NCBI GenBank assembly: GCA_025980435.1 | Contig: JAICXK010000022.1 | Coordinates: forward strand, 1 to 34,409 | Length of the DNA stretch: 34,409 nt | Source: Bryobacteraceae bacterium | Lineage (GTDB): Bacteria; Acidobacteriota; Terriglobia; Bryobacterales; Bryobacteraceae | Reading direction: 5' to 3' | Shown: positions 1,681-19,800 of the stretch, one piece after another | Layout: the number at the start of each line of letters is the position of its first letter | How positions within the stretch are numbered: position 1 is the first letter of the stretch | The notes under the pieces: model-generated | Told to the model about the DNA's origin: nothing | Databases searched by the model: none | The model's input: the letters and a program-made list of their open reading frames with translations, nothing else | Position numbers and translations under genes: made by a program

Positions 1681-1717
1681 AGGATAACAGAGAGACGGCG
1701 AACTGAAGTTCACCGCG

Positions 1718-1734
1718 GCACGCTGAAGGCGTGC
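1718..1734. repeat. Short GC-rich hairpin after the NHL gene stop (REP-like or terminator stem)
   Basis: GCACGC-TGAAG-GCGTGC is a perfect 6-bp stem with a 5-base loop, six bases past the stop codon of the minus-strand NHL-repeat gene. On the minus strand it is preceded by GTGGC, the sort of head seen in front of REP hairpins. No T-run follows, so a factor-independent terminator is not well supported. It may be one member of a dispersed hairpin family. Confidence 0.4.
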
Positions 1735-1739
1735 GCCAC

Positions 1740-12240: not shown

Positions 12241-15200
12241 TCAGAAGGAGAAACGGAGAGAAAGCTGCAGGTTGCGCACGTCGTCCGTTTTGCCGGTGAT
12301 CTTGCCGAAGGTGGCTTTGTTGGTCGGATCAAGCTGAACGGTACTCAAGTTCGGATGGTTGAAGGCGTTGAACGCTTCGGCGCGGAACTGGAAGGCGAAC
12401 CGCTCGGTTACAGCGAACTTCTTGAACAGGCCGAGGTTCCAGTTGTTGAAGCCCGGGCTGTAAACGCTGTCGCGAACACCGTCCTGAGTCACAAACGTAC
12501 CCTTTGCGGGCGGTGTGAAGATTGGCGAGCCATCCGGGTTGGAAACGTTGAACCAATAGTTGCCCTGACTTCCCGGATTGGCACTGGCGGAATCGAAGTT
12601 TTTCGGATAAGTGATTTTGCCGTTCATGGCCCAAAACTGTCCAACTTTGTTATTGGAACAGCCGAAGCTACCGTCCTGGCCGACCCCGGCGTAATCATTG
12701 CTTAAGCCGACGTTACAGGGAGTTCCGGTCTGAGCCTGGAAGATACCGCTGATCTGCCACCCGCCAAGAATCTTGCCGGGAAGCGTGTTCTGGCTGCGGA
12801 GGAACGGCAGTTCGTAAAGGAAGTTGATGATAAAGATGTGGCGGGCGTCGAACTCGGACGGTCCCCAGAGGTTGTGGGCGTCGTAGGTGTTCGGGATGAT
12901 GTCGCGCTGGTTCGATCCGTCGTCCCAGCTCTTGCTATACGTGTAGGCTGCGCCGAACTGCAGACCTTGCGAGAAGCGCCGGTTCCAACTGAGCTGCAGC
13001 GAATGATAAGTGGAACTGGCGACGTTGTCGGTTTCGCGAATGGAGTTGTAGCCCTTGTAGGGTCGGAGCGCATCCAAGTTTACACCTGGGTTCGCTGCGA
13101 CTGTGGCAGGTGTTGGCTGGTTAATATCGGCTTCCCGCTGCAGGTGCAGGCCGCGGCGTCCAACGTAGGCAGCGCTGAACACCGAATTGAAGATTTCACG
13201 TTCCACAGTGAAGTTCCAGTTCCAGGCTGAAGGATTCTTGAAGGTGCGGCTCTGGGCAGTGACTGTCAACGGAAGAACGTTGGTTGAAGTGCCTCCCGGA
13301 TTGTCCACGTTTCCGAAGCTGACGTTGGCCGTCGGCTGGAAGGGCGGATTTCCACCGAGGAAAATGGAATCGCTTACGCCAAGCCGGGTGAAGTACTCCC
13401 CTGCCCCGGCGCGAATAACCGTCTTAGGATCCAACTGGTATGCAATACCAAGCCGGGGTTGAACTTGGCCCCATTGAATATTTGAGTAATAGCGCGGATA
13501 GCTGCCGCCACGAAATAAATAACTAAGCGATGGATCGGTGGCGGCGGGGAAGCGGCCTTTAGCGGAATCGGGAAATCCGCTGCCGGGAATAACCATGCCG
13601 TTGTAGCGGTCGCCGTTACCAACGATAATCTGGCCGGCATTCGCTCCGCTTGGAATGACACTTACGGCTTTAGAGGGATCATACAGCGTGGGATCGAAAA
13701 CGATCATGTTGCGCCAGAGCGCACTGTACGGAACAATGACGGTGTAGCGCACCCCGTAATTCAGCGTCAACTTGGGCGTCACTTTCCAGGAGTCTTGCGC
13801 GTAAGGTTCGTAGCTGCTCCCGCGGAAAATCGTGTAGGCGCGCTGCCCAAGTTCGGAATAACTGTCGAACAGACCCAGCGCCACGTTCGCGATTGCGTTA
13901 CCCGAGCCAGGGAAACCAGAGCGGGAGTCAGTGAACTGGAACTGGCCGTTCTGGTTGTTGGTGCAGGTGGGGCACGCGCTCACGTTGATTTCGTCATTAT
14001 CGTTCTCGCCCGAATGCTCATAATAGAAGCCGAACTTCATGGTGTGGCTTCCCTTAACCCAGGTCAAGCTATCCGATAACGTGTAAATCGGACCTGAGGA
14101 ATGAGACGGATAAGGGCCTCCCGTCAAGCCATTCAATCCTGTGATATTCGCAGTCGGGATGCGCGTCGGAATCAGCTTGCCCGAAGGGAAAAGATACGGA
14201 TAATTGATTCCTACCGTTGTGCGGTCCAGGAAGTGCGCCTCGTCGACGGGAATGTAGACATCGTCCAGGCTAACGGTGGCAAGCGTTTCGTTCACCAGCG
14301 TTGGACTAATCGTCCAAACGTAATCGAGCGAGTTGGTTTGGTTGGGACGATTGAAGAATTTCGGCGTCTCGGTCGGTGTGCCGTCGAGCGGTTGATATTC
14401 AAAGAAGGAATAGTTGTTGCGCCGAAACTGCAGCCGTTGCCTATCGGTCACGTTGATATCGACCGCTAATGTATCCTTGCGCTGATTCTGGGGATGGAGA
14501 GCCGTGACGAAGAGGTTACTGTTACCGATGAAATCGCCGATGGCCAGATTTGGAGCCGGATACGCCTTCAAGATGCCAAGCCCGTTTGGACTCAGTTTAT
14601 TTGCCGGAATGATATTTCCGGCATAAGGCGCGCCGGTTGTGGGATCGTGGAGTTGCACAACCTTGCCCAAAATATTCTGCGGGCCGAGGGTTAGCAACTC
14701 GCTAAAGTTTCCCTGGCGCATCAGGTTTGTCGGAACGGTCCAGGTGGCGCTGTCCGTAAAGCGATACCGGACCCACTCCTGTCCCCAATACCAGAAATAT
14801 TTGCTCTTGTCCTTATTGAACTTGCCGGGAATATAGAACGGACCGCCAATGTTGTATCCGAACTGGTTATAGCGGAACGGAGCCACATCCTCCTGGTTCT
14901 TGGTATGGTTGCGGGTCCAGGTGTTGGCGTTCAAGACATTATTACGAAAGTATTCATACCCTGCACCGTGGAAATCAGACCCGCCCGCGCGGGTTACGAT
15001 ACGGATTTGAGCGCCGGAGGTACGGCCGTATTCGGCGGCGTAACCAGCAGTCAAAACCTGGATTTCGGATGTCGAATCCACATCGGCCGAGCCCAAGCTG
15101 GTTCCATTGGAGCGCGTCCGCGTAGCCGGGGCACCGTCGTAAGTGATCAGGTTATCCGGGTTGCGGGATCCGTTGAAGTTCGAAGGACCCTGGCCGAAGC

Positions 15201-15732
15201 TGAAATTCAGGCCGGAGAGATTGCCGCCGCGCGCGCCGGGCACCAGACTCGCCATATTGATAGGATTGCGCCCATTCAATTCGAGAGCCTCGATTTGTTG
15301 TCGCGTGACCAACTTCTGGACAGAAGCCGTTTCCGTTTGGAGCTGTGTAGCGGCAGCGGAGACCTCAACCGTTTCCGATGCGGCGCCTAACTGAAGGGCA
15401 GCGTTGACTTGCAGCGTGGACGCGGGGTCCAGCTTATTGTTCGCGCTGTCGAACTTTTTAAATCCGGCCGCCGTGACGCTGACGGTATACATACCCGGCG
15501 GAATGTTCGTAACCGAATACACTCCGTCCTGGTTGGAGGCCGCCGTGCGCTGGCTGCCATTAGCGGTGTTCGTCACCGTCACCTGCGCGTTTGGAACAGT
15601 CGCACCCGATGGGTCATGAACGGTTCCGTTAATCGTGCCGTTGTCCGACTGGGCAAAGGCGATTCCTGATAAAGCGAGACAGACAGTGAACGCCAGACAG
15701 AGGCGTGCTGCCCTTGCAAGCAGAGCTTTCAT
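12241..15732 (-). CDS. Oar-like TonB-dependent receptor with N-terminal carboxypeptidase-regulatory domain
   Basis: An outer-membrane beta-barrel receptor, 1163 residues, that imports or binds a large substrate using TonB energy. A Sec signal covers 1-28 (ending GIAFAQ). A carboxypeptidase-regulatory-like (CNA-B-type) domain follows at about 32-115 (GTINGTVHDPSGATVPNAQV to GMYTVSVTAAGF), then a plug domain (LVTRQQIEALELNGRNP, GAQIRIVTRAGGS) and a barrel ending in LQLSLRFSF, the aromatic C-terminal barrel signal. ATG at 15732 is chosen over an upstream TTG because GGGGAG lies 5 bases before it and the signal peptide starts there. Such Oar-like receptors are abundant in Solibacter-type genomes, and substrate cannot be read from sequence. 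A strong terminator follows, so it is monocistronic. Confidence 0.92.
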   Translation of the reverse strand: MKALLARAARLCLAFTVCLALSGIAFAQSDNGTINGTVHDPSGATVPNAQVTVTNTANGSQRTAASNQDGVYSVTNIPPGMYTVSVTAAGFKKFDSANNKLDPASTLQVNAALQLGAASETVEVSAAATQLQTETASVQKLVTRQQIEALELNGRNPINMASLVPGARGGNLSGLNFSFGQGPSNFNGSRNPDNLITYDGAPATRTRSNGTSLGSADVDSTSEIQVLTAGYAAEYGRTSGAQIRIVTRAGGSDFHGAGYEYFRNNVLNANTWTRNHTKNQEDVAPFRYNQFGYNIGGPFYIPGKFNKDKSKYFWYWGQEWVRYRFTDSATWTVPTNLMRQGNFSELLTLGPQNILGKVVQLHDPTTGAPYAGNIIPANKLSPNGLGILKAYPAPNLAIGDFIGNSNLFVTALHPQNQRKDTLAVDINVTDRQRLQFRRNNYSFFEYQPLDGTPTETPKFFNRPNQTNSLDYVWTISPTLVNETLATVSLDDVYIPVDEAHFLDRTTVGINYPYLFPSGKLIPTRIPTANITGLNGLTGGPYPSHSSGPIYTLSDSLTWVKGSHTMKFGFYYEHSGENDNDEINVSACPTCTNNQNGQFQFTDSRSGFPGSGNAIANVALGLFDSYSELGQRAYTIFRGSSYEPYAQDSWKVTPKLTLNYGVRYTVIVPYSALWRNMIVFDPTLYDPSKAVSVIPSGANAGQIIVGNGDRYNGMVIPGSGFPDSAKGRFPAATDPSLSYLFRGGSYPRYYSNIQWGQVQPRLGIAYQLDPKTVIRAGAGEYFTRLGVSDSIFLGGNPPFQPTANVSFGNVDNPGGTSTNVLPLTVTAQSRTFKNPSAWNWNFTVEREIFNSVFSAAYVGRRGLHLQREADINQPTPATVAANPGVNLDALRPYKGYNSIRETDNVASSTYHSLQLSWNRRFSQGLQFGAAYTYSKSWDDGSNQRDIIPNTYDAHNLWGPSEFDARHIFIINFLYELPFLRSQNTLPGKILGGWQISGIFQAQTGTPCNVGLSNDYAGVGQDGSFGCSNNKVGQFWAMNGKITYPKNFDSASANPGSQGNYWFNVSNPDGSPIFTPPAKGTFVTQDGVRDSVYSPGFNNWNLGLFKKFAVTERFAFQFRAEAFNAFNHPNLSTVQLDPTNKATFGKITGKTDDVRNLQLSLRFSF

Positions 15733-15837
15733 AGAACTCCCCAAAATATGTAAGAACTTGACTTTGACTACCCGAAGTTCAGGCGCAGAAAATAAATTCC
15801 GCAGCCGTGAACTCAACAACTAACCCACTGTTGGATG

Positions 15838-15860: not shown

Positions 15861-15889
15861 AAAACGGATGCCGCCAGGAATGGCGGCAT
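15861..15889 (-). terminator. Probable terminator of the minus-strand sugar-isomerase-like gene
   Basis: ATGCCGCCA (15868-15876) and TGGCGGCAT (15881-15889) form a perfect 9-bp stem with a 4-base loop. On the minus strand it is followed after CCG by TTTT. It sits 33 bp past the stop of the isomerase-like gene and is also the second hairpin of a REP-like doublet, so one element may serve both roles. Confidence 0.5.
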
Positions 15890-15913
15890 GGCAGCGCTGG
15901 AGCGCCGCTCCAC
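15868..15913 (-). repeat. REP-like hairpin doublet, solo copy
   Basis: On the minus strand a 46-bp unit reads block GTGGAGCGGC, ten variable bases, block TGCCATGCCG, ten variable bases, block CGGCAT. The same blocks at the same spacing occur at 17824-17869: 10/10, 10/10 and 5/6 identical, while the ten-base spacers differ. Each half folds: TGGAGCG pairs with CGCTCCA, and ATGCCGCCA with TGGCGGCAT. It lies between two genes with no transposase beside it, as expected of a dispersed REP copy. Confidence 0.7.
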
Positions 15914-15921
15914 AACACCGG

Positions 15922-16893
15922 TTACGGGACGTATTGATCCAAATAGCGCTTCGCCATGATGAAGCCCATTTTGAAGTCGTCGCTGAAATCCGGGCCGTGA
16001 TTGGTGCCCGCGCCATAGAGCGGATCTTCCTGTTCGATGCTCATGGCGCCCGCATAGCCGACATTCTGCAAGATGGAGAAGAACTCACGCCAATTGATGG
16101 AGCCCATGCCGGGAATGCGATAGCGCCACCAGCGCGCCTTATTCACGGGATCGATGCCTCCAGCGCGGAGTACCGGCCAGAGTATTTCGGTGTCCTTCAG
16201 GTGAACGTCGTAAATCCTGTCCACGAACTGGCGGGCCGTTTCGATGGGATCCATGAACTGACGAACGAAATGCGAAGGGTCGAACTGAAGGCCGACATAG
16301 GGGGAATCGCCAAAGCCTTTGAACAGCGCCTCAAAACCTACCGGGCTCGTGGCGAGATTGGCCTCATTCGGATATGGCTCCCAGAGCAGGCGTACATTGT
16401 TCTGTTCGCAGGCCGGGAAATACTTTTCCTTGTACACCTGAACGATTTCGTCCACCTGGTCCTGGAACGGTTTGGCGGGATCGCGGCCCGATTGCGTTCC
16501 GATGTAAGGGACCTTCAGCTTTCCGGCGAGAGCGATGGCTTTGACGAAGTAATCGTTCACTTGCGCGCGGCGCGATGGGTCGGAAGCGATGTGGTTCCCA
16601 TCGATCTGGAACGCGGACACGTGCATGTCATTCTTCTGCAGCACCGACTGCAACTCTTGCACTTGCGCGTCGCTGATGGTCGTGGCATCGAGGGTCGAGC
16701 GCGGGCCGGCGCTCAGGATCATGTTGGTAAAGCCGTGCGATTTCGCGAACTCGACGTTGCCCGGCGTATAGCGGCCCAGCACACCGAGACGCGGCTTCCA
16801 TTCCGTGTGCCGGCGGCGCTGCGAATTTGGAGGAGTTTGCGATCGTAAAGCCGCCGCGAAGGCGAGTGAGCTAACCAGGGTTCGACGAGTCAT
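15922..16893 (-). CDS. Sugar phosphate isomerase/epimerase-like TIM-barrel protein, exported
   Basis: A 323-residue protein of the xylose-isomerase-like TIM barrel (AP endonuclease 2) superfamily. The N-terminus MTRRTLVSSLAFAAALRSQ has an RR pair and a hydrophobic run, a likely Tat or Sec signal. Metal-site candidates include LLWEPYPNEAN, GLQFDPSHF (Asp and His), YDVHLKDTE and MSIEQED near the C-terminus. The family includes isomerases, epimerases and 3-keto-sugar enzymes, and this one has no assigned substrate. It is divergent from a second member of the same superfamily, with starts 50 bp apart. The start is the only sensible ATG; no Shine-Dalgarno was seen. Confidence 0.85.
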   Translation of the reverse strand: MTRRTLVSSLAFAAALRSQTPPNSQRRRHTEWKPRLGVLGRYTPGNVEFAKSHGFTNMILSAGPRSTLDATTISDAQVQELQSVLQKNDMHVSAFQIDGNHIASDPSRRAQVNDYFVKAIALAGKLKVPYIGTQSGRDPAKPFQDQVDEIVQVYKEKYFPACEQNNVRLLWEPYPNEANLATSPVGFEALFKGFGDSPYVGLQFDPSHFVRQFMDPIETARQFVDRIYDVHLKDTEILWPVLRAGGIDPVNKARWWRYRIPGMGSINWREFFSILQNVGYAGAMSIEQEDPLYGAGTNHGPDFSDDFKMGFIMAKRYLDQYVP

Positions 16894-16943
16894 CGTGATA
16901 AGTGTATTACCCGCCGGTTCCGATCGTGAGAGAATACCGCTGA

Positions 16944-17807
16944 ATGTCCGGAATTTCGAGAAGAGCCTTTTTCAAGGATGCGGCGGCAGATACCGCGATT
17001 GCGAGCCTGGTATCCGCGAGCGCGCTAACGCTTCGCGCCAATCCGCTTGGGATGCCGATCGGGTGTCAGACGTATCCGGTCAGAAAGATGATCGCGCAGG
17101 ACTTTCCCGGCACGCTCAAGCAGCTTTCCGATGCGGGGTTTCAGAGGGTCGAGTTGTGCTCCCCGTGGGGCTATGCGGATTCGGGGTTTGGCGGCCTCGC
17201 CAAATACAAAGGCGCCGAACTGCGAAAGATTTTGGGCGACGCGGGTCTCGAGTGCCATAGTTCTCACTTCGATATCAAAGAGCTGCGGTCCAACATGGCG
17301 GACCGAATCGCCTGGGCGAAGGATGTTGGATTAACACAAATGATGGTGCCAAGCCTGGACGGCCCGCGGAACCCAACCATGGACGATGTAAAGCGGGCGG
17401 CCGACGAATACAACAAGATAGCCGAACAGGCGGCTCAGGCGGGCATCCAGCAGGGCTTGCACAACGAAGGCTTTGAGCTATCGACTGTCGACGGCAAACG
17501 GACGTACGATGTGCTGTTCCAACTGCTCGACCCGAAGCTGGTCAAGTTTCAGTTCCAGGTTTCGACCATCAGCCGCGGCTATGATGCCGCCCAATACTTC
17601 AATAAGTACCCGGGCCGGTTCATTTCGATGCACGCGCAGGGCTGGTCGGCAAAGACCCGAAAGATTGTGCCGATTGGACAAGGCACGCTGGATTGGAAAG
17701 AGATCTTCACCGCAGCAAAGACCGGCGGAATCAAGAATTACTTCGTGGAAATGGAACTGGAAATGATGAGGGAGAGCGTCCCGTATTTGAAGAAGCTGGA
17801 GGTGTAG
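16944..17807 (+). CDS. Tat-exported sugar phosphate isomerase/epimerase-like TIM-barrel protein
   Basis: A 287-residue xylose-isomerase-like TIM-barrel protein. The N-terminus contains SRRAFFK, an almost ideal twin-arginine motif, followed by a hydrophobic stretch ending LTLRANP. The mature part opens with PIGCQTYPVRKM (strand 1) and includes QRVELCSPWGY, CHSSHFDIKEL, GLHNEGFEL and YFVEMELEMM. The His and Glu residues fit the family metal site. It is divergent from a distant homologue across 50 bp. Exported members in soil bacteria are often linked to periplasmic modification of sugars, but the substrate here is unknown. A RAYT-type element sits immediately downstream. Confidence 0.87.
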   Translation: MSGISRRAFFKDAAADTAIASLVSASALTLRANPLGMPIGCQTYPVRKMIAQDFPGTLKQLSDAGFQRVELCSPWGYADSGFGGLAKYKGAELRKILGDAGLECHSSHFDIKELRSNMADRIAWAKDVGLTQMMVPSLDGPRNPTMDDVKRAADEYNKIAEQAAQAGIQQGLHNEGFELSTVDGKRTYDVLFQLLDPKLVKFQFQVSTISRGYDAAQYFNKYPGRFISMHAQGWSAKTRKIVPIGQGTLDWKEIFTAAKTGGIKNYFVEMELEMMRESVPYLKKLEV

Positions 17808-17822
17808 GCGGGGCTAAACGCA

Positions 17823-17869
17823 GGTGGAGCGGCCTTTCGAGGTTGCCATGCCGGGTTTCGAGCCTGCAT
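17823..17869 (+). repeat. Left REP-like hairpin doublet of the RAYT element
   Basis: The first hairpin is GCGGCCT-TTCG-AGGTTGC (17829-17846), seven pairs including two G-T. The second is built from CATGC (17847-17851) and GCATG (17866-17870) with an inner TTCG loop. The first is preceded by GGTGGA, in the position of the single-stranded head that REP hairpins carry. It shares block order and spacing with the copies at 15868-15913 and 18443-18489. Confidence 0.7.
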
Positions 17870-17911
17870 GCCGAGGTGAGACTTTTATCTACTGGCCAGG
17901 ACGGCTTTCCT

Positions 17912-18504
17912 ATGGGATTCTATCGCCGCCGCTTGCCGCATTGGCAACCCCAGGGTCGTTCCCTATTCCTCACGTGGCACTTGTACGGCAGTTTGCCCCG
18001 AAACCGATTCCCACCGCCGGGGTCGTCTTCCGCCGGGAAGAGCTTCGTCTGGATGGACCGCTATCTTGATCGAGCCTGTTCCGGACCTACTTGGTTGCTC
18101 CAAGAAAAAGTCGCCCAGTTAGTACTGGACTCGCTCCAGTATGCGGAACGCGTCCTGCATTTCTATGACTTGCACGCTGGGTGATGATGAGCAACCACGT
18201 TCACCTCCTGGTGTCGCCAAAAGTGGAGCCTGCCCGCTTTCTGCAATCCGTGAAGGGCTATACAGCCCGAGAAGCGAACCGTCTCCTGCAGCGCACCGGG
18301 CAACCCTTCTGGCAGAGCGAATCGTACGATCACTGGATCCGGGATGGACACGAATTCGAGCGAGCCCAGAATTACATCGAATGCAATCCTGTTCGTGCTG
18401 GCCTTGTCATGCAGCGCGAGCAGTACCGATGGTCTAGCGCTTACGCCGGCTGCGATGCCGGCGTTGCCGGCTCGAAAGCCCGCTCCACCGATCTGCTCGT
18501 CTAG
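17912..18504 (+). pseudogene. REP-associated tyrosine transposase (Y1/HUH), frameshifted
   Basis: The first part, MGFYRRRLPHWQPQGRSLF to HFYDLHAG, stops at a TGA at 18182-18184. The second part continues in the -1 frame as MMSNHVHLLVSP. Reading T18178 twice (GCT then TGG) restores YDLHAWVMMSNHVHLL, the standard family sequence, so one T appears lost. HUH is NHVH; the catalytic Tyr is in QSESYDHWIR, and NYIECNPVRAGL is the family C-terminal block. Y1 proteins of this kind act as single-strand DNA endonucleases that mobilise REP sequences. Restored, the protein is about 197 residues, near the family norm. The break lies between the N-terminal strands and the HUH motif, so neither fragment should work. 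An assembly error or a slippage site is possible. Confidence 0.88.
18443..18489 (-). repeat. Right REP-like hairpin doublet of the RAYT element
   Basis: On the minus strand GCGGGCT-TTCG-AGCCGGC pairs at 6 of 7 positions, and ACGCCG pairs with CGGCGT in the second hairpin. At that second stem the other copies have ATGCCG with CGGCAT, a T-A to C-G compensating change. The doublet overlaps the last 16 or so codons of the transposase frame. Confidence 0.65.
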
Positions 18505-18525
18505 ATATAGAAACTGTGGAAATCC

Positions 18526-19800
18526 CTACGCCAGTTCGATGCCTCTGGTTTCCGGCACCCACCCGGCGCTGACAGCCGCCAAGGCGAAAGCAACCGCGCA
18601 CGTTGAGAAAGCCCATGACAGCCCATGCGTCTCGCCGATCGCGCCGATCAGGAACGGAGCGAATGCGCTGAGGCCGCGGGCCGCGTTGTAGGAGACGCCG
18701 AGCGCGGTGGCGCGAATCGCAGTCGGGAATAATTCGGTGCCGAGAATGCCCGAGCCGGTGAAGAAGCCGGTTCCAAAGAAAGCGGTGATGGATGCGGCCA
18801 GTAAGATCAGTCCAGGCTGCCGAGTCACAGCAAAGAACGGCACGGAGGCGGCGGCGAGCACCAGATAAATAATGATGGTGCGTTTGCGCCCGAACTTGTC
18901 GGCGAGGACTCCGAAGAGCAAGTAGCCCGGCAGCATTCCGCAGAGGTTCAGTACGACCAGGAAACCGGTGAAGCCAAGCATACCGAAACCGCGGCCGCCC
19001 TTTGCCACCGGCAGAGCGAGATAAGCCGGTATCCAGGTGAAGAGTCCCCACCACGCAAACATTCCGAACGTATTCATGCTGAGGAGCGCGGACAGGCTCG
19101 GAAGCGCGTCGCGCCAAAGGCCAACGTTGCCGGCGCCGGATCGCTTCTTCATCTGCCGCTGCCAAAGCGCAGGTTCGGGAACCCCGCGCTGGATCCAAAG
19201 CGTTACGAATGCGGGCAAGACACCGACGAAAAAGACCCAGCGCCAGTTCGCACGGGACAGCACCAGGCCGGCAACCACGGCGGCAAGGGCGTAGCCTATT
19301 GCCCAACTGCTCTGCACGATTCCCAGTGCGCGGCCTCGCCATGCGCCCGGCCAGGTCTCTGCTACGAGCGTTGCGCCGGAATTCCATTCGCCGCCCATTC
19401 CAAGCCCCAGGAGGAAGCGGAACACAGCAAGCATCGTAACGGAAGTCGAAAAACCACAGGCGAAGGTAAAGATGGAATAGAGCAGGATGCTCTGGCTGAG
19501 CATGCGACGGCGTCCGAAGCGATCGGCGAGCAGACCGAATGCAAGGCTACCAATGGCGGAGGCAACCAGGGTGAGCGTGTTCAGCAGGCCGGCTGTAGAC
19601 TTCGTCATACCGAACTCGCGCATTAACGTGGCGAGCACGATGGAATAGAGCATTACGTCGAAGGCATCCAGCATCCAGCCGAGCCCTGCCGCAACCAGCG
19701 TGCGGCGCTGCGCTTCGGTCGTGTTGCTCCAGCGAAAAGGCGGCGGTGCGGTTTGGCCGGGAGCGAGTTTCGCGCTCGGCAATGAGCTCGCGTCCGGCAT
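18526..19800 (-). CDS. MFS transporter, metabolite:H+ symporter (AAHS/SP-like)
   Basis: A 424-residue inner-membrane transporter with 12 predicted helices, likely driving uptake of a small organic acid or similar compound with protons. Helix 1 has GWMLDAFDVMLYS (the conserved Asp of this branch). Loop 2-3 carries LADRFGRRR, and loop 8-9 the matching LADKFGRKR. FLLGLGMGGEWNSG in helix 4 and ELFPTAIRATALG in helix 10-11 are typical of aromatic-acid or sialate-type symporters. The frame opens further upstream, but MPDASSLP at 19800 is the best start; ATG at 19818 is an alternative. Neither has a Shine-Dalgarno. It is divergent from the hydantoinase-like gene, whose ATG is 31 bp away, so a shared substrate and overlapping promoters are plausible. 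Confidence 0.88.
   Translation of the reverse strand: MPDASSLPSAKLAPGQTAPPPFRWSNTTEAQRRTLVAAGLGWMLDAFDVMLYSIVLATLMREFGMTKSTAGLLNTLTLVASAIGSLAFGLLADRFGRRRMLSQSILLYSIFTFACGFSTSVTMLAVFRFLLGLGMGGEWNSGATLVAETWPGAWRGRALGIVQSSWAIGYALAAVVAGLVLSRANWRWVFFVGVLPAFVTLWIQRGVPEPALWQRQMKKRSGAGNVGLWRDALPSLSALLSMNTFGMFAWWGLFTWIPAYLALPVAKGGRGFGMLGFTGFLVVLNLCGMLPGYLLFGVLADKFGRKRTIIIYLVLAAASVPFFAVTRQPGLILLAASITAFFGTGFFTGSGILGTELFPTAIRATALGVSYNAARGLSAFAPFLIGAIGETHGLSWAFSTCAVAFALAAVSAGWVPETRGIELA

Follow-up and report, generated by a model that had tools for sequence, protein, structure and literature searches.

The 34,409-nt stretch of DNA analyzed here (the window) comes from a bacterium of the family Bryobacteraceae and is an entire contig (JAICXK010000022.1) of a 5.14-Mb draft genome (416 contigs, 93% complete). 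It carries three copies of a 46-nt repeat, two of them flanking a gene for a Y1 transposase, and the question raised by this locus is what the repeats are and how they relate to that gene. Taken as a whole, the evidence indicated, with a probability that we put at about 0.8, that the repeats are the cognate elements of the gene at 17912-18504, a repetitive extragenic palindrome (REP)-associated tyrosine transposase (RAYT), and that each of them is a REP built of two hairpins. A first-pass annotation had placed the copies at 15868, 17824, and 18443, and all three were found there, on the minus, plus, and minus strands, respectively, with units 2 and 3 flanking the RAYT gene and unit 1 solitary, as had been described; the two flanking units are inverted. 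The head GTGGAGCGG opened every copy (15913 to 15868, 17824 to 17869, and 18488 to 18443). A 30-nt pattern composed of this head, 10 variable positions, and YTGCCATGCCG detected, at up to 3 mismatches, exactly these three copies in the window and none in 100 dinucleotide shuffles; the three copies are beyond chance.

The general architecture of the unit was GTRG, one free base, a first hairpin, 0 to 2 nt, and a second hairpin. In unit 1, this took the form GTGG-A-hairpin 1 (7 bp)-1 nt-hairpin 2 (9 bp). Folding as single-stranded DNA produced two adjacent hairpins in copies 1, 2, and 3 (z = -4.1, -1.7, and -3.4, respectively); hairpin 2 of copy 2 (17824) is degenerate. A further copy, on contig C385, preferred an alternative pairing of hairpin 1 when folded alone. 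The units thus resembled REPs in being short, foldable palindromes with conserved stems, weakly so for the fold of copy 2. REPs have a single stem-loop per unit, and because a second hairpin followed here after 0 to 2 nt, we regard the units as a variant and not as a standard member.

Conservation of the stems by compensatory change, another claim of the first-pass annotation, was examined in an alignment of 11 copies, 10 from the host genome and 1 from another genus, where it lies next to a related RAYT (L098). All 11 copies started with GTGGA, a single free base preceding the stem. Paired cells made up 92.5% of 174, compared with 77.5 ± 2.1% in shuffles; there were 24 double-sided cells versus 8.7 ± 2.0, and the covariation score was 0.395 versus 0.145 ± 0.026. 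None of 500 shuffles was as high on any of these three measures. Two weaker measures gave 7 pairs with a double change versus 5.2 ± 0.9 (27 of 500 shuffles) and 12 further pair types versus 11.2 ± 1.1 (197 of 500). The aligned copies share ancestry, and the shuffle controls are therefore not strict probabilities. In a control with slid partners, pairing fell to only 25 to 46%. The proposed T-A to C-G compensation was real, the pair being T-A in 7 copies, A-T in 2, and C-G in 2, while the third pair of hairpin 1 was G-T in 7 copies and G-C in 1 and did not form in the other 3. Covariation exceeded that of shuffled sequence, and the claim that the stems are kept by compensation stood.

The RAYT gene was split into two frames by a break near 18170-18180, and the copy at 18443 lay within its 3' coding end; both are limits of the observation. 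The C-terminal piece scored 33 bits against Y1_Tnp of Pfam (cutoff, 23), 62.7 bits against the NCBIfam model REP_Tyr_transpos (NF047646; cutoff, 80), and 27 bits against the IS200/IS605 model NF033573 (cutoff, 55), and the RAYT model was thus the better one. Three longer paralogue frames reached 64.0 to 76.8 bits with NF047646, also below 80; none of the four proteins passed this cutoff, yet it was the best model for each. An intact paralogue had one match in the PDB, the TnpA-REP protein of Escherichia coli (4ER8, E = 0.002). The HUH and tyrosine core was present in the window piece as NHVH and YIE.NPV and was conserved in an alignment (A1) of 20 relatives. The residues with which the E. coli protein reads its guide, given as W94, Q95, E/D100, H101, and R104 in the part of PMC6006769 available to us (all of the papers cited were available in part), corresponded to WQ....DH..R both in the window piece and where the paralogue was aligned with 4ER8. 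Filing the transposase as a RAYT was therefore essentially right, given the better RAYT model and the PDB match, and the wider proposal of a REP family with its mobilizing RAYT was supported, the copies being dispersed, structured, and inverted around the gene. The RAYT of the window looks dead, and its repeat family is therefore probably frozen.

Units of this layout were sought at the other RAYTs of the host genome with a scan for GT[AG]G, one base, a hairpin of 6 to 8 bp, 0 to 3 nt, and a second hairpin. Pfam identified nine Y1 loci, eight of which carried two-hairpin units with differing stems, and a tenth RAYT, truncated at the end of contig C68 (L106), also had a unit. The stems varied among these RAYTs with both arms changing together. 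Inverted units were present on both sides at seven of the nine loci (the 5' unit of the window, below the scan threshold, was counted from the pattern and a relaxed scan, and the inverted 3' unit of L015 was weak), while L022 had two units on its 5' side only and L014 had none. The 3' unit lay wholly inside the reading frame at five of the seven loci (L016, L018, L019, L020, and L021), and in four RAYTs (the window, L018, L021, and L022) the frame was disrupted or the N-terminal part was out of frame. At L045 (2050-2280) and L046 (2092-2214), the RAYT frames continued, close to the 3' unit, as tandem peptide tails of low complexity. The REP-RAYT filing of the first-pass annotation was upheld, whereas the two-hairpin layout common to other RAYTs of the genome had escaped it.

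A random sample of 20 contigs chosen by number (223 kb) contained 8 units scoring at least 14, compared with a mean of 1.0 (maximum, 2) in ten shuffled samples. All 8 were headed by GTGG and none by GTAG, and other head words yielded 0 to 4 units. Subtraction of the 1 expected unit and scaling gave an extrapolated total of ∼160 units per genome for all stem families together, although one of the 8 (L033) looks accidental.

The exact family of the window was much smaller. Tens to hundreds of copies had been anticipated; further copies do exist, but only 10 full ones were counted in the host genome, including the three in the window. This count comprised 8 copies confirmed by the scan, copy 2 (from its sequence), and a unit on contig C61 headed by GTGGAGTGG. 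The 30-nt pattern, again with up to 3 mismatches, matched 13 places in the genome versus 0 for a reversed control, several of the 13 not being units, and GTGGAGCGG-N{7,12}-YKGC matched 26 places versus 8 in the control, 8 of the 26 being confirmed as two-hairpin units. There was a partial copy on C184, and diverged copies were present on C1 and C416. The bare 9-mer GTGGAGCGG was too weak a probe (102 places versus 67 for the reversed control) and was not used; intergenic location was not assigned by crude open reading frame calling either, which gave too many false frames at this GC content. A search of 17 genomes of the genus with a longer pattern gave 6 places in the host and 3 in the 16 others, distributed over two of these, against a single control hit overall; the scan recognized none of those 3 places as a two-hairpin unit. 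The same-genus stretches L231 to L238 contained no unit scoring at least 13. A DNA search detected, in one of the 16 other genomes (G064), a 41-nt stretch with 88% identity to copy 2 (L242:434-474, minus strand). Although it has lost the GTGG head and goes unscored by the scan, this stretch looks like a degenerated relative of copy 2, and the notion that only the host genome has the exact family was abandoned on account of it. Among the 17 genomes, the intact family was thus seen only in the host of this RAYT, and at least one relic was present in another.

The presence of two hairpins behind one head led to a comparison of their sequences in 103 units scoring at least 13, which were drawn from the RAYT flanks of genomes of the family, 13 loci of named genomes, and the 8 sample units (L033, L092, L103, and L128 being doubtful). 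The central 8 nt of hairpin 1 were compared with those of hairpin 2, the null distribution being obtained by dealing the second hairpins among units. In 44 units with less than 75% mutual identity, 5.16 of the 8 tip positions agreed versus 3.65 ± 0.20, a value reached in 0 of 10,000 permutations. The corresponding figures were 5.46 versus 3.66 ± 0.14 for all 103 units and 4.90 versus 3.58 ± 0.29 (0 of 10,000) for one unit per each of the 21 distinct first tips. For example, CACTCGTG occurred in both hairpins of L048 and GTTTCAAC occurred in both hairpins of L080. The hairpin bases (the outer three positions on each side) gave no signal, with 2.44 versus 2.40 ± 0.12 in 52 units. Within a unit, the two tips match beyond chance and the bases do not. 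In the window, TTTCGAG was common to both tips of unit 2 by eye, and the tips of unit 1 were unlike.

The distribution of the layout was examined among relatives. The RAYT query had a match in 41 of the 61 genomes of the bacterial family, the host included. Flanks were taken from the strong matches, from 10 weak ones resembling terminal inverted repeat-associated tyrosine transposases (TIRYTs), and from 80 loci of named genomes (the best 80 of at least 462 confirmed). Many RAYTs were flanked by two-hairpin units and others by a single hairpin, for example GTGG-GGCAGGCG-GTTT-CGCCTGCC; no convincing unit pair was found at any of the 10 weak TIRYT-like matches. A tree was built for 82 RAYTs, 58 labeled as two-hairpin and 24 as single-hairpin. 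Fifty-four of the 58 passed the scan at 12.5, and L064, L066, L083, and L125 were labeled by eye (degenerate or GGAG-headed copies). All 24 single labels were assigned by eye, L086 and L104 from one side only and L103 despite a scan score of 13.5. Seven loci with no recognizable repeat (L067, L081, L090, L127, L129, L133, and L141), L106 (too short), L123 and L130 (unlabeled), and loci outside Bryobacterales were excluded, and a few proteins were double in the tree, the same genome being present in both collections. On this tree the label changed once, compared with a mean of 21 after shuffling, and the branch that separates the 58 two-hairpin from the 24 single-hairpin RAYTs had a bootstrap value of 97 and an SH-like approximate likelihood ratio test value of 88. 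The free base after GTRG was also clustered (5 changes versus a shuffled mean of 16.0) and is not diagnostic. Protein residues that track the repeat type showed weak group differences only; an R..FP stretch near residues 27 to 30 and F143 (L016 numbering) are weak candidates for a protein change.

The scan was extended outside Bryobacterales with up to 6 nt allowed between the hairpins. Two-hairpin units were detected at 12 of 55 loci (7 of 55 at a threshold of 14.5), compared with 0, 0, 0, 0, and 1 in five shuffles. The layout is therefore not confined to one group, and an earlier view of two hairpins as a peculiarity of this group of RAYTs was given up. The tips matched here as well, with 4.56 versus 3.47 ± 0.28 positions in 18 nonredundant units (0 of 10,000). 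Some of these units may be dimers of whole REPs. Beside L138, L152, L153, L165, and L189, which are RAYTs of Verrucomicrobia, Planctomycetes, Chloroflexi, and another bacterium, 1 to 6 nt separated the hairpins.

Much of what was found agrees with known systems. REPtrons, i.e., TnpA-REP genes flanked by REPs (Quentin et al. 2018, PMC6006769), likewise have palindromes with GT[AG]G at the 5' foot on either side of a Y1 gene, a repeat family of their own for each gene, several families per genome, and, in subclass 2.4, repeats in frame within the gene. The shapes described in the available part of that paper are long hairpins, bulged hairpins (in one wording hairpin-bulge-hairpin), double-foot forms, and short hairpins, and among these a second hairpin directly behind the first does not appear. 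The GTAG-tagged REPs of PMC3733652 are short palindromes, often arranged as inverted dimers, that leave GTAG or GTGG unpaired at the end and are linked to RAYTs, and their dimers consist of two whole tagged units, as far as that text was available, whereas the second hairpin is tagless here. The class 3 TnpA-Y1 proteins of Acidobacteria, with ∼600 structures in Solibacter, are credited in the same part of PMC6006769 with a CnGA foot, in contrast to GTGG in all 11 copies here. TIRYTs (PMC3733652 and PMC6006769), as these sources present them, are Y1 transposases from Acidobacteria with GGGG[AT][CG]A[CG] terminal repeats and no REP and are not the system of the window. The Y1 transposase at L014 (1150-1953, minus strand) had ends of the GGGGACAG type, was followed downstream by simple repeats rich in C, and looks to be a TIRYT, not a RAYT. 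No description of a tandem two-hairpin REP was found in the literature searched, which comprised main text, in part; the REP-RAYT kind itself is known, and what these published descriptions did not provide is a two-hairpin unit whose tips match.

The copies of the exact family could be divided into two subtypes. The 5' unit of the RAYT in the window had 67 to 87% identity to a-type copies and 64 to 67% to b-type copies, while the 3' unit had 68 to 85% identity to b-type and 56 to 74% to a-type copies, which suggests an overlapping but consistent difference around the RAYT. Inverted pairs on C164 and C61 each consisted of an a-type and a b-type unit, ordered as at the RAYT, with 33 and 30 nt between them, respectively; the units at 15868 and on C385, C399, and C291 were solitary. 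The two pairs look like REPINs, which are spacer-separated inverted pairs of REPs and have been proposed as the replicating form (PMC3116915, in its available part). They share with REPINs the heads-outside orientation and differ in having halves that are themselves two-hairpin units and belong to different types.

These features are compatible with a mechanism in which a single-strand transposase would bind the folded repeat and GTGG would serve as a guide for the choice of cut. In assays of the TnpA-REP proteins of E. coli, Stenotrophomonas, and Marinomonas, GTAG matters for activity, a changed GTAG moves the cut of the Marinomonas protein, and loop bases are critical for the Stenotrophomonas and Marinomonas proteins, two TnpA-REPs of group 3 (PMC8266576, in part). 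If the protein reads hairpin tips, two like tips behind one guide would constitute two binding sites, which might serve two subunits or two steps of cutting and joining. Inverted a-type/b-type pairs, such as those around the gene, would be a nonautonomous mobile form, and single copies would be decay products. From the match of the tips and the lack of a match of the bases we infer, tentatively, one transposase pocket that reads both tips. It is likewise possible, though we would not call it probable, that the units are a REP class of their own, with one transposase reading two tandem hairpins of like tip and with both sites held by a single repeat, and that this class arose once in a large RAYT group of the bacterial family and separately or earlier in other phyla.

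Several points weigh against the reading of the repeats as two-hairpin REPs of this RAYT or against its parts. The support comes from sequence analysis, the exact family has few copies, and the reading frame of the RAYT is broken in the host genome. Base-exact reading of an empty site of copy 1 failed in the three same-genus alignments tried, in which intergenic DNA was too diverged. The 11 distinct neighboring unit pairs beside RAYTs (re-fetched loci dropped) included 4 tandem and 1 heads-in arrangement as well as 6 heads-out, and the a/b subtype call was moderate, unit 3 being 74% identical to one a-type copy. The tree labels were partly visual (24 of 24 single and 4 of 58 two-hairpin), mechanical labels changed 6, 7, 9, and 11 times at thresholds of 12.5, 13, 13.5, and 14, respectively, and a quicker first tree with outgroups gave the same branch a support of only 85; in that tree L081, a RAYT without a recognized repeat, fell inside the two-hairpin group. 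Only unit 3 of the window entered the tip test, with 4 of 8 positions alike. Replication of the tip result was weak. A further search provided 28 loci (8 of them re-fetched earlier loci), 26 of which had units, and the 8 units with less than 75% identity to the first set gave 5.25 versus 4.35 ± 0.35 (133 of 10,000) and, for the inner four positions, 2.75 versus 2.42 (1,310 of 10,000).

Like tips would also result from tandem duplication of one hairpin. Such a duplication is the main rival explanation for the origin of the unit, and it is compatible with later use of both hairpins. The unit may alternatively have originated by collapse of a head-to-tail dimer, i.e., two tandem REPs that lost the inner GTRG. 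Pairs arranged head to tail, each member with its own head, were seen by eye beside the RAYTs L130, L151, and L166 and are possible forerunners of two-hairpin units, and the likeness of the two tips agrees with such an origin, while the hairpin bases were no more similar than chance. The full form of this explanation, in which hairpin 2 is a passive relic, is unlikely; a relic would hardly persist beside 58 RAYTs with changing stems. An IS200/IS605 insertion sequence, with the flanking copies as its left and right ends and the single copies as solo ends, would account for the Y1 transposase, for inverted units at both sides, and for the unlike types of the flanking pair. It is a much poorer explanation: the IS200 model was missed, no second near-identical copy was present among the nine Pfam loci or the genome protein hits, the other RAYTs of the genome differed in protein and stems, and every unit had its own GTRG foot. 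That the hairpins are transcription terminators or RNA stabilizers with an accidental resemblance is the least credible possibility, since the hairpins are stable, GC rich, and in some cases close to gene ends, but a conserved GTGGAGCGG head, a fixed layout, and a link to a RAYT are not terminator features, and an Rfam search of the window at gathering scores gave no match.

The features of the locus are listed below together with their surroundings. Unit 1 lies between the start region of a minus-strand gene (12241-15819) and the end of another (15922-16893). The genes beside the RAYT encode two xylose-isomerase-like TIM-barrel proteins and one MFS transporter. The segment that contains the second TIM-barrel gene and the RAYT was absent in three genomes of the same genus, in which the flanking genes were within 30 bp of each other; in three more the flanking genes were ∼680 to 860 bp apart. 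This block is either gained here or lost there. The additional unit near the start of the window resembles units close to the RAYT at L015.

Coordinates of the repeat units and RAYT pieces in the window, with the evidence for each
Feature	Position	Strand	Remarks
Two-hairpin unit of a different stem family (GTGG-C-GCACGC...)	1695-1739	-	Scan
Two-hairpin REP unit 1 (a-type)	15868-15913	-	Pattern, scan, covariation, fold
Second xylose-isomerase-like TIM-barrel gene, RAYT, and its two units	16914-18526		∼1.6 kb
Two-hairpin REP unit 2 (a-type), 5' of RAYT	17824-17869	+	Pattern and relaxed scan only
N-terminal piece of frame-broken RAYT, RRRLPH motif	17912-18184	+	Similar to intact paralogue over 17921-18190
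C-terminal piece of RAYT with NHVH, FWQSESYDHWIR, and YIE.NPV	18181-18504	+	End encoded by REP unit 3
Two-hairpin REP unit 3 (b-type), 3' of RAYT, within its coding end	18443-18488	-	Pattern, scan, fold

The dozens of natural transposase-repeat pairs bear on the way in which RAYTs copy REPs; the two hairpins of a repeat tend to have like tips, which indicates the bases that are read. If the switch between single and two hairpins on one branch is upheld by blind labeling, a search for the underlying protein change could follow. The two-site model can be tested with short oligonucleotides; if it is true, a single repeat would combine the two binding sites that in IS200/IS605 elements are split between the left and right ends.

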